From positions 124,001 through 188,000 of the forward strand of contig NZ_BJYX01000004.1 of NCBI RefSeq assembly GCF_007991735.1: a stretch of 64,000 nt of DNA, read 5' to 3'. The notes under the pieces were generated by a model, which did not search any database, was not told where the DNA came from, and saw only the letters and a list, made by a program, of their open reading frames with translations. Source of the stretch: Terrabacter aerolatus (GTDB taxonomy: Bacteria; Actinomycetota; Actinomycetes; Actinomycetales; Dermatophilaceae). Positions 42,232 to 44,369 of the stretch are shown here, piece after piece (position 1 is the first letter of the stretch; each line of letters begins with the position of its first letter). The position numbers were made by a program, and so were the translations under genes.

Positions 42232-42252
42232 GGCCCCGGCCCACCTCGAGCC

Positions 42253-42315
42253 GAGCCGCCCGAGCCGCCCGAGCCACTGGAGCCACTGGAGCCACTGGAG
42301 CCACTGGAGCCGGAG
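42253..42315. repeat. 9-bp tandem repeat after ppgK
   Basis: Seven 9-bp units: two GAGCCGCCC, four GAGCCACTG and one GAGCCGGAG. They are not in a supported gene (the frame would read a Glu-Pro-Leu repeat). The array lies between ppgK and a hairpin. Confidence 0.75.
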
Positions 42316-42359
42316 GCGGTCCTGGCCGGCGCACCCCGTGTGCACCGGCCCGGACCGCC
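42315..42359. terminator. Large imperfect hairpin between ppgK and the cytochrome operon
   Basis: GGCGGTCC (42315-42322), GGCCGG (42324-42329) and GCAC (42331-42334) pair with GTGC, CCGGCC and GGACCGCC ending at 42359, with two symmetric mismatches and a 5-nt loop. It lies between convergent transcripts. Confidence 0.65.
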
Positions 42360-42382: not shown

Positions 42383-43324
42383 TCAGCGTCGGTGGTTCCA
42401 GCTGCGCCAGACGAGCCGGTGCACGCCCAGGTGTCGGGGCAGCGTGCGCAGTCCCGGGATCCACGGGATGCAGATGAAGCCGATGCTCAGCAGGATCATG
42501 AGGGCCCAGACCTGGATGTCGGCGTTGTCGGACGTCGCGAAGGGCGGCACCTGGTACCAGAGCGAGTAGAGCCACAGCCACGGCTGGCCGGGGTAGTTTC
42601 CCGTCTCGTTCATGATGCCCCACTGGTCGCCGCCGAGGTTCTGCGCCCGAGCCAGGTCCTCGAGGTGGGTCCCGTCGGCGAGCAGGAGCAGCGCCTTGGT
42701 GCTGTCGACGCCGAAGAAGCTCGTCCGCGAGGTGAGCAGTCCCTCGAGGGACCCGCTCTCGGCGAGCTGCAGCTCGGCCGCAGCGATGGCCGGGACCGGT
42801 CCGTAGTCGCCGGCGGCCACCTTCGCGGGGTCACCGTCCGGCGCCTTCGACAGGGCGTCCGAGTACGCGGTCGCCCAGGCCTGCTGCCGGTCGGCGGAAG
42901 CTGCCTCCCAGACCCGAACGGCCGCCACCGCAGCGGCGTCCGAGGTGAGCGTGCGCACGGGGTCGAGGACGAGGTCCTTGGCCGAGTCCACGGGCTGGGT
43001 CACTCCCGGCAGGGTCTGCAGGTTGACCGGGCCCAGCGTCTGTCCGGTGCCTGCCGTGTTGTAGGGCGCCCCGTAGCCGGCGCTCGTCGTCGTGCCGGCG
43101 AGCTCACCGGCCGCCGTCGCGACGACGTCGGCCGGGGCCTGGCGCGCCCACTGCTGCAAGGAGATCGCCGGATCGTCGGGCGAGGAGAAGACGAGCGCGG
43201 CGACGACGCTGAGCATCGTCACCACCGCGAGCGCGATGACGAACTCCTTGACGAGGTCGTAGCGCCGGGTGGGAAAGGCGTGCGAGTCGGGCGTGATCCC
43301 CCAGCCGCCGGTGCGGGCACTCAT
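42383..43324 (-). CDS. Membrane protein partner of cytochrome b6-like protein (PetD-like ends, large exported domain)
   Basis: A 313-residue protein, third gene of the cytochrome operon. A helix at about 28-48 is followed by a 200-residue extracytoplasmic region rich in Ala, Asp and Thr, then PWLWLYSLWYQVPPF near 246-260 and a helix at about 273-293. The Trp/Tyr-rich stretch resembles the quinol-site PEWY region of cytochrome b C-terminal domains, but the Glu is absent. No heme-c CxxCH. ATG 43324 overlaps the cytb stop (ATGA). I do not recognise the family; a b-type complex subunit is inferred from context. Confidence 0.72.
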   Translation of the reverse strand: MSARTGGWGITPDSHAFPTRRYDLVKEFVIALAVVTMLSVVAALVFSSPDDPAISLQQWARQAPADVVATAAGELAGTTTSAGYGAPYNTAGTGQTLGPVNLQTLPGVTQPVDSAKDLVLDPVRTLTSDAAAVAAVRVWEAASADRQQAWATAYSDALSKAPDGDPAKVAAGDYGPVPAIAAAELQLAESGSLEGLLTSRTSFFGVDSTKALLLLADGTHLEDLARAQNLGGDQWGIMNETGNYPGQPWLWLYSLWYQVPPFATSDNADIQVWALMILLSIGFICIPWIPGLRTLPRHLGVHRLVWRSWNHRR

Positions 43325-44079
43325 GACTCCGGCCCCTGACGGACGGGCACCGCGGGCACCGGGGCCGTGGCGGGAGTGCCGGGAGTGGTCGGACGAGCAG
43401 GCTCGTCCGCCGTCGAGAGCGCGGGGTCCTCCGCGCCGATGGGTGGGGCGACACCGCGACGCCGCACGAGGACGAGGTGCACCACGACGATGCCACCGAC
43501 GACCAGTGGGAGGAGCGAGACGTGCCACAGGACCATCTGGCCGAGGTTCATGACGTTGAAGTAGGCCCCGATCCCGGCAGCGTTGAGTCCGTCCTTGGCC
43601 TGGGTGGAGATCCACTGCGAGTCGAAGTTGGTCTGGATCAGGTAGCCCGTGAAGGCCGTTCCCAGGGATCCGAAGAACGCGAGCGCGCCGGTGGCCCAGG
43701 TGAGCCCGCGGTTGCCGCGCCACGAGGCCATGAAGAACTTGCCCCAGAGGTGGATCACCATGGTGGCGAAGAAGAGCTCGACGCTCCAGAGGTGCACCGA
43801 GTTGACGAAGTGCCCGAGCGAGTTCGAGTGCCACCAGGTGACGCCGCCCAGCGTCAGCACGAGGCCCGAGACGATGATGACGACGAGGCTGGCGAGGCAC
43901 GCGACCCCGAAGACGTAGATCCACGAGGCGACGTAGGCCGGCTGCCGGTCCGGCAGCCACTGCCCCTTGGGCACCAGACCCTCGACCCACCGGGTCAGGG
44001 CTGCGGTCCAGGTGTCACTTCCGCGGCGGGGGGCTGGCTCCGCCGACGTCGGGCGCACGGAGGCCGGGGCCCGGCTCAT
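43321..44079 (-). CDS. Cytochrome b6-like (cytochrome b N-terminal domain) protein
   Basis: A 252-residue membrane protein with four helices in the conserved cytochrome b N-terminal fold. Heme ligand pairs are H96/H110 (H-x13-H) in helix 2 and H186/H201 (H-x14-H) in helix 4, the b6-type spacing (x14 in the second pair rather than bc1-type x13). A Pro/Ala-rich tail of about 45 residues follows. There is no Rieske or cytochrome c gene nearby, so the electron partner is unknown. ATG 44079 overlaps the upstream 57-aa gene (ATGA). Confidence 0.85.
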   Translation of the reverse strand: MSRAPASVRPTSAEPAPRRGSDTWTAALTRWVEGLVPKGQWLPDRQPAYVASWIYVFGVACLASLVVIIVSGLVLTLGGVTWWHSNSLGHFVNSVHLWSVELFFATMVIHLWGKFFMASWRGNRGLTWATGALAFFGSLGTAFTGYLIQTNFDSQWISTQAKDGLNAAGIGAYFNVMNLGQMVLWHVSLLPLVVGGIVVVHLVLVRRRGVAPPIGAEDPALSTADEPARPTTPGTPATAPVPAVPVRQGPES

Positions 44080-44249
44080 CGATCCTCGTCCTCACGCGAG
44101 GAGGGGAAGGGCAGCACGAGCGCGAGCATGAAGACGACGATCATCAGGAGGATGACGACGAGGTTGGCGACGGTGATCGTCAGCCAGCCCCACTGGACGA
44201 CGGGACCTGCAGGCACTGGCTGTGATGCGGCGAGGAACTGGGTGATCAT
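44076..44249 (-). CDS. 57-aa single-helix membrane protein, first gene of cytochrome operon
   Basis: A short gene of 57 residues starting MITQFLAASQ. ATG 44249 is preceded by GGAGGCCAGAG, an ideal ribosome binding site. Residues 20-48 form one strongly hydrophobic helix (LVVILLMIVVFMLALVL), followed by a charged tail SREDEDR. Its stop overlaps the cytochrome b start by 4 bp. It is likely a small subunit or assembly factor of the same complex, comparable in size to the small subunits of b6f-type complexes. It was found by reading the sequence around the operon start. Confidence 0.82.
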   Translation of the reverse strand: MITQFLAASQPVPAGPVVQWGWLTITVANLVVILLMIVVFMLALVLPFPSSREDEDR

Positions 44250-44299: not shown

Positions 44300-44321
44300 C
44301 TACTACACAACGTAAGAGTAG
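44300..44321 (-). promoter_or_regulatory. Imperfect dyad upstream of cytochrome operon
   Basis: CTACT (44300-44304) and AGTAG (44317-44321) flank an A+T-rich centre; TACTACA on the plus strand recalls one arm of BlaI/CopY-type operators (TACTACA-n2-TGTAGTA), but the second arm is poor. It lies about 55 bp upstream of the 57-aa start, in the operon's promoter region. Confidence 0.35.
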
Positions 44322-44369
44322 GGCGCGTGGTCCCGGTGCGGACCGGAATGGGATCTTCGGTCGGTGACC

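Follow-up and report, generated by a model that had tools for sequence, protein, structure and literature searches.

A conserved three-gene module of the cytochrome b/b6 family in Terrabacter and other actinobacteria: a putative transmembrane electron conduit without a Rieske partner

The b haems of bc1 and b6f complexes operate together with a Rieske centre, which takes one of the two quinol electrons. We describe here three overlapping genes from a 64,000-nucleotide stretch of the 4.4 Mb Terrabacter aerolatus genome (contig NZ_BJYX01000004.1, G000:C4:124001-188000; hereafter the window), all on the minus strand. They encode p57, a 57-residue subunit with a single transmembrane (TM) helix (44249-44076), a 252-residue di-haem b-type cytochrome with helices A-D (44079-43321) and p313, a 313-residue protein in which an E-F-like half of cytochrome b appears to carry a large exported insertion (43324-42383). 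We propose, with a probability of about 45%, that this trio branched off from the cytochrome b/b6f family without Rieske and cytochrome c parts, and that it acts as a transmembrane electron conduit linked to menaquinone, its outer site having been rebuilt. The trio falls below every curated NCBIfam cytochrome b cut-off and is without a Rieske protein, the partner by which bc complexes are defined. The open-licence literature searched gave no description of it. A conserved, naturally fused complex with b haem sites and E-F-like helices and no Rieske protein raises the question of what the b half does alone.

Conservation and natural fusion of the trio

Relatives were collected by a cytochrome scan of bacterial and archaeal genomes that gave 480 matches, and all locus counts below refer to the best 80 of these 480. 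The relatives were picked by cytochrome peptides, some of them conserved, while p313 was not used for picking; cytochrome conservation is hence somewhat inflated, given this choice of peptides and the retention of the best 80. The conservation alignments held 84, 84 and 78 rows for p57, the cytochrome and p313, respectively, with L001-L009 (own loci and near-duplicates) left out, as were fragments below 70% of the length for the cytochrome and p313. The closest relatives of the window cytochrome belong to Terrabacter and Terracoccus (78-92% identity). Most of the best 80 carry actinobacterial labels (Terrabacter, Humibacillus, Pseudonocardia, Actinospica, Actinocrinis, Kitasatospora, Streptomyces, Curtobacterium, Raineyella, Acidithrix), and a few bins are labelled Chloroflexota, Dormiibacterota or Saccharibacteria.

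In the window, p57, the cytochrome and p313 follow one another through two ATGA overlaps, with the coordinates given in an earlier note made from the sequence alone. That note proposed a search for the same trio in other genomes, where it does recur: p57 is present at all 80 loci and p313, in the same order, at 76, the contig ending just past the cytochrome in the remaining four. Neighbouring parts are fused into one open reading frame (ORF) at 17 of the 80 loci. These comprise seven triple fusions of p57, cytochrome and p313 (one of them, L071, cut by a contig end), nine cytochrome-p313 fusions and one p57-cytochrome fusion at a contig end (L066); p57 shares an ORF with the cytochrome at eight loci. 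At unfused loci the p57 stop reads ATGA in 47 of 72 cases, and the cytochrome stop before p313 reads ATGA in 33 and GTGA in 18 of 60. Since the order is kept in the 76 loci with room for it and 17 loci carry fusions, the arrangement goes beyond chance; and since the proteins are fused in nature, they should act together in one complex. Gene order and fusions thus show the trio to encode a single predicted integral membrane complex, as the earlier note had argued from the tight coupling of the genes.

The presence of the trio is patchy, with p313 found in 10 of 58 near genomes and in 11 of 396 genomes phylum-wide (own genome included in both counts), and the cytochrome had no match on plasmids. 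One genome (G149) holds two trio copies (C8 and C16). Two trio-like cytochrome matches each were also seen in G460 (C400) and G454 (C394, C401), those of G460 being on a single contig, where ~45 kb containing universal stress genes separates them. In Terrabacter sp. Root85 (L007/L015), p313 is interrupted by one in-frame TAG (G008:C8:750736-751659), which represents either a recent loss or a sequencing error.

The cytochrome keeps both haem sites

The cytochrome matches the Pfam family PF13631 (Cytochrom_B_N_2) with 48.8 bits (cut-off 27), and its score against PF00033 (26.4 bits) lies just under the cut-off of 27.2. None of its best NCBIfam scores reaches the respective cut-off: 47 of 290 bits for ExtP (NF040969), 41.4 of 325 for cytochrome b6 (NF002990) and 23 of 500 for QcrB (NF050120). 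Its two best PDB sequence matches are b6 chains, and comparison of its profile with a QcrB alignment gave an E-value of 1.6e-14 over 155 columns, within the part formed by helices A-D. The two histidine pairs H96-x13-H110 and H186-x14-H201, on which the likeness to cytochrome b6 was originally based, keep their four residues and the spacing within each pair in 84 of 84 aligned sequences, window included. This shows the cytochrome to have retained what are, by alignment, the four ligands of two b haems stacked across the membrane.

Mean conservation is highest in helix B, which contains haem ligands (0.89), followed by the outer cd loop and the inner bc loop (0.80 each). Nine polar residues of the cd loop are at least 95% conserved (Q149, N151, D153, Q155, K162, D163, N166, N175 and Q181), as are four polar residues of the bc loop. 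The companion subunit p57 matched no Pfam or NCBIfam family above cut-off; its columns conserved to at least 95% are N29, F40, A43 and P47-F48-P49. A likeness of p57 to helix F of QcrB, with a probability of 0.6% in profile comparison, was dropped as chance.

p313 as a proposed counterpart of helices E and F

No Pfam or NCBIfam family was matched by p313 above cut-off, and comparison with PDB sequences gave nothing in earnest for the protein alone or as a profile (best E-values 0.77 and 1.1). The AlphaFold2 model of a natural triple fusion, L062 (587 residues, 137 alignment rows), has a predicted local distance difference test score (pLDDT) of 82.5 and a predicted template modelling score (pTM) of 0.81. 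The best Foldseek matches of this model in the PDB are cytochrome b chains of bcc/bc1 complexes (E-value about 1e-6), and all 50 VIA-align matches listed are chains of bc1/complex III-type entries. The best of the latter (Z 15.9, root-mean-square deviation (rmsd) 3.6 over 280 residues) places model residues 80-578 on chain residues 8-319, a range which, going by helix numbering, we take to run through helix F. Because nearly all of chain 8-319 is aligned, the p313 helices would correspond to E and F, and the domain of ~190 residues to an insertion in the Qo-side ef loop; helices G and H have no counterpart in p313. The model comparison thus supports the view of p313 as a predicted counterpart of the E-F half, its Qo-side loop enlarged by an inserted helical domain of ~190 residues. 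New relative to the earlier note is that, in the model, the exported part seems to have been inserted between two helices of cytochrome b.

In the window, TM1 (residues 24-45, 43190..43255, minus strand) is placed as helix E from the aligned ranges, the model helix 293-315 of L062 lying within the range aligned to cytochrome b 8-319. This helix is covered by fused rows only, as unfused p313 rows were trimmed to begin after the N-terminal helix. TM2 (residues 268-284, 42473..42523, minus strand) is placed as helix F by the model and structure comparison. When the p313 and fused alignments were compared with a profile of 18 QcrB relatives and the own QcrB (the latter counted twice, as itself and as L114), only helices A-D were matched. 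As this profile comparison gave no similarity for p313, its helices E and F are assigned from structure alone.

Between the two helices, model and conservation delimit the exported, all-helical insertion (residues 47-232, 42629..43186, minus strand) in the ef loop. In the fused L062 model, 14 of its 19 ten-residue blocks have a pLDDT of 90-98. Folded alone with the window residues, the domain gave a mean pLDDT of 76.5 and a pTM of 0.72; Foldseek then returned a best E-value of 2.7 and VIA-align no match at Z of at least 2, which does not prove a new fold. No Cys or His is conserved above 70% anywhere in p313, the insertion included, making a c haem, an iron-sulphur or an ordinary copper site unlikely.

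The insertion is followed by the signature QWGxMNETGxxPGQxWxWLYxxWYQ (residues 234-258, 42551..42625, minus strand), which conservation and model mark as a putative rebuilt Qo-side segment. Mean conservation in segment 233-262 is 0.86, the highest in p313, compared with 0.58-0.69 elsewhere. The signature also holds the only segment of at least three residues with pLDDT under 50 in the L062 model (508-519), and looks in the model as if it were to be ordered by a haem, a ligand or a partner. The earlier note had put its Trp/Tyr-rich stretch at the position of the quinol-site PEWY motif of cytochrome b, without the Glu. Structure comparison does place the stretch in the ef loop, where PEWY is found, whereas the p313-QcrB profile comparison shows nothing there. 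The absence of the Glu holds for column 248, directly before the conserved Trp, which contains A in 38, P in 30, S in 9 and a gap in 1 of 78 sequences (followed by W at 249, L/M at 250 and W at 251); it does not extend to the whole segment, as an invariant Glu (E240, 78/78) sits nine residues ahead of W249.

Partner genes and the separate QcrB

Motifs of possible redox partners were scanned around the 80 loci in flanks of 8 kb at most, often shorter and in many cases cut by contig ends. Within these flanks a Rieske motif was found near two loci only (L029 and L039), in ORFs outside the trio. These unrelated-looking ORFs (L029:10298-11884 and L039:11302-12903) are long and appear by eye to join a DoxX-type membrane domain to a Rieske domain at the C-terminus. 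CXXCH occurs in ORFs of 16 of the 80 loci, none convincing by eye as a cytochrome c and one being thioredoxin-like. The original description of the trio as lacking Rieske and cytochrome c partners is in line with both scans. Its proposed separation from qcrCAB likewise agrees with the genome: the own QcrB lies ~58 kb from the window trio, and a QcrB/b6-type gene besides the trio is present in 28 of 28 carriers examined, with 25 scoring above the QcrB cut-off.

A check for constant neighbours, also suggested by the earlier note, was run on the 80 loci and revealed nothing constant outside the trio. At six loci other than those with the dormancy-type families described below, two of the six labelled Acidimicrobiales or Acidimicrobiaceae, the trio instead has a thioredoxin-like gene and a probable haem O synthase nearby, both named by eye. 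At an Actinospica locus, a Pyr_redox_2 oxidoreductase gene (L061:6433-7617) immediately precedes the trio and shares its strand; it could be linked to it as electron donor or acceptor, and is not constant elsewhere.

Dormancy setting and upstream sites

Neighbour families that recur across lineages were assigned by eye and include universal stress protein (Usp, 14 of the 80 loci), LuxR-type response regulator (13), pyridoxamine-oxidase-like protein (10) and nitroreductase (8). Pfam searches in example loci, some with rough gene calls, confirm these families (including Pyridox_ox_2) and add Hsp20 and an Rv2632c-like protein. We take this set to be reminiscent of DosR/OsdR dormancy islands (compare PMC5069765). 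The dormancy setting of part of the family adds to what the earlier note had described. Usp genes lie near the trio in 7 of 17 loci, compared with 0.82 expected; the associated probability of 5.7e-6 is optimistic, since the 17 genomes (from the 80 loci, mostly named species) were chosen by hand, partly after seeing the neighbours. The seven cases rest on BLAST clusters, and at least four of them (G458, G460, G462, G464) have a Pfam Usp match within 8 kb of the trio.

A matrix for OsdR-like boxes was built from OsdR sites given in PMC5069765. Boxes scoring at least 12 were found in 14 of 82 upstream regions, compared with 2.5 expected from random windows of the same loci; as further controls, the reversed matrix gave 4 and 200 permuted palindromes a mean of 1.55 (maximum 10). 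A weaker signal was obtained with a DosR consensus, with 42 of 82 upstream regions scoring at least 13 (19% of random windows) and 7 scoring at least 15 (0.65%). The site before L029, CGGGACCTTCGGCCCT, is identical to one S. coelicolor site listed in PMC5069765. Because related loci are not independent, the Usp, neighbour and box counts overstate the number of events.

In the window itself, an OsdR/DosR-like box, CGGGACCACGCGCCCT (44320..44335, minus strand), scores 11.2 compared with 25.3 for the consensus. Of 200 permuted palindromes 4 score equally well, and the box is not kept in close relatives; the dormancy link for the window is accordingly weak. What the close relatives share instead is the imperfect palindrome CTACTCTTACGTTGTGTAGTAG (44300..44321, minus strand), upstream of p57 and with conserved arms, a candidate operator or promoter. 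Its arms are kept, with a varying centre, in the window and 5/5 Terrabacter/Terracoccus loci; among two Humibacillus loci one is exact and the other one base off in the arms, and the palindrome is degraded in Intrasporangium. It is the only zero-mismatch site in the genome, with four others at 3 mismatches. A BlaI-type regulator was considered for this site and dropped: the genome has two members of the family, and by eye no similar site was seen ahead of the one that was read (L103). The window trio has an ordinary setting, flanked by a ROK-family kinase and an ABC transporter. In the gap that separates the kinase gene from the trio, directly after the former, positions 42240-42320 hold short direct repeats (gagccactg-type units).

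Proposed mechanism and alternatives

In the proposed conduit, single electrons would cross the membrane via haems bL and bH, linking menaquinone at an inner-face, Qi-like site with a rebuilt outer site made up of the polar cd loop together with the signature of p313. There, electrons would be taken, or less probably given, by a partner or a small polar substrate, with no Rieske centre involved. A polar substrate or docking partner is suggested because a pocket rich in Asn, Gln, Asp and Lys would be unusual for a lipophilic quinol. For part of the family, a DosR/OsdR-type regulator may induce the complex under hypoxia or redox stress, and it could then serve as an outlet for an over-reduced quinol pool. 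Because dormancy islands presumably answer conditions of an over-reduced quinol pool, we lean towards quinol oxidation with an outer acceptor.

Several points weigh against this proposal. The trio is known here from its genes and a predicted structure, and both the direction and the substrate of electron flow are guesses. The L062 model represents a 587-residue relative instead of the window chains, was computed without haem, and draws on an alignment in which most rows are single parts. Its whole-chain superposition by Foldseek is poor (TM-scores 0.28-0.48, rmsd 18-24 among the 50 matches listed), p313 has no sequence-level similarity to QcrB in profile comparison, and the very signature assigned to the outer site is poorly modelled (pLDDT below 50 at 508-519 of L062). 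Conservation of the outer cd loop is no higher than that of the inner bc loop (0.80 both) and lower than that of helix B (0.89). No neighbour gene is constant across the 80 loci, the commonest being a generic ABC ATPase (22/80). Nor was a dormancy island observed next to the trio in the lineage of the window, whose box is a weak match.

Two alternatives retain the haem pathway and differ in what happens at the outer face. A diffusible one-electron acceptor encoded elsewhere (a copper protein, a small c-type cytochrome or QcrA in trans) might dock on the p313 domain, replacing the fixed Rieske head and keeping a bifurcated Q cycle going. The retained E/F-like helices and both haem pairs fit this arrangement, as do the position of the insertion on the Qo side, where a Rieske head would dock, and the QcrB/b6-type gene present in all 28 carriers examined. 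We consider it unlikely, as no partner gene is constant in the 80 loci, and the conserved Gln, Asn, Asp and Lys of the cd loop together with the absent PEWY Glu are odd for a lipophilic quinol site. With electrons running the other way, the trio would be an outer-face quinone reductase, in which an exported dehydrogenase or small reductant feeds the outer site and electrons pass over bL and bH to menaquinone inside, comparable to the membrane anchors of periplasmic enzymes and to superoxide oxidase. Two haem sites, no sign of another cofactor and the polar outer loop would suit such a role, for which superoxide oxidase offers a working precedent (PMC11869295); the lack of a constant donor gene nearby, and the membership of the trio in the cytochrome b/b6 rather than the b561 family, leave it equally doubtful.

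That the trio short-circuits the quinone pool, oxidising menaquinol at one face and reducing menaquinone at the other to dissipate or adjust the proton-motive force in dormancy, appears very improbable. Such an activity follows by inference from the topology of a Rieske-less b cytochrome with two quinone sites, and is compatible with the dormancy setting in part of the family. Against it, the outer loop is polar and a leak of this kind would require tight control. Slighter still is the chance that the trio has no redox function and is an assembly factor for a bc complex or a structural relic of one. Its patchy presence (11/396 genomes phylum-wide, own included) and the in-frame stop in p313 of one near relative (G008) could be explained in this way. 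Such a reading is at odds with haem ligands that are invariant, and a signature that is nearly so, over many lineages, and with the gene fusions in 17 of 80 loci and carriers with two copies (G149).

The conduit with a rebuilt outer site hence remains our preferred reading. In its most specific form, which we put forward tentatively as possible, the trio would represent a previously undescribed class of Rieske-free cytochrome b complex in which a helical domain in the ef loop and a polar cd loop have remodelled the Qo site as an active site on the outer face. The complex would use haem b alone to act on a small polar substrate or docking partner, be coupled to menaquinone, and have been recruited to a DosR-type dormancy programme in several actinobacterial lineages. 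The trio provides a concrete, expressible object for testing the b half, and natural single-chain fusions should ease biochemistry and cryo-EM. Should the link to dormancy islands be confirmed, the stress programme would gain a membrane complex for electron transfer.

Comparison with known systems

With cytochrome b of bc1 complexes and actinobacterial QcrB the trio shares helices A-D with two His-pair haem sites, and its model aligns over chain residues 8-319. It differs in being split into three chains or fused, in the ef-loop insertion, and in having no PEWY Glu, no helices G/H and no Rieske or c-type gene alongside; the 23 bits of its cytochrome compare with a QcrB cut-off of 500. The division into b6-like and E-F-like parts is shared with cytochrome b6 and subunit IV of b6f, as is H-x14-H in helix D, a spacing we take to be the b6 rule. 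In contrast, the trio cytochrome reaches 41.4 bits against a b6 cut-off of 325, no Rieske or cytochrome f genes were seen at trio loci, and p313 is without the third helix of subunit IV. ExtP (NF040969), the b-type cytochrome of selenite/tellurite operons, is the best NCBIfam match (47 bits, cut-off 290), a comparison made by score alone.

Superoxide oxidase (CybB) is described in PMC11869295 as a minimal four-helix membrane protein coupled to quinone reduction. As a cytochrome b561 it belongs to a different family, and its likeness to the trio would be one of working principle only, and hypothetical. As to the OsdR/DosR regulon, a term search of the main text of PMC5069765 did not find "cytochrome". 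What the regulon shares with the trio are the OsdR-like boxes and the Usp/nitroreductase neighbours seen in several trio lineages.

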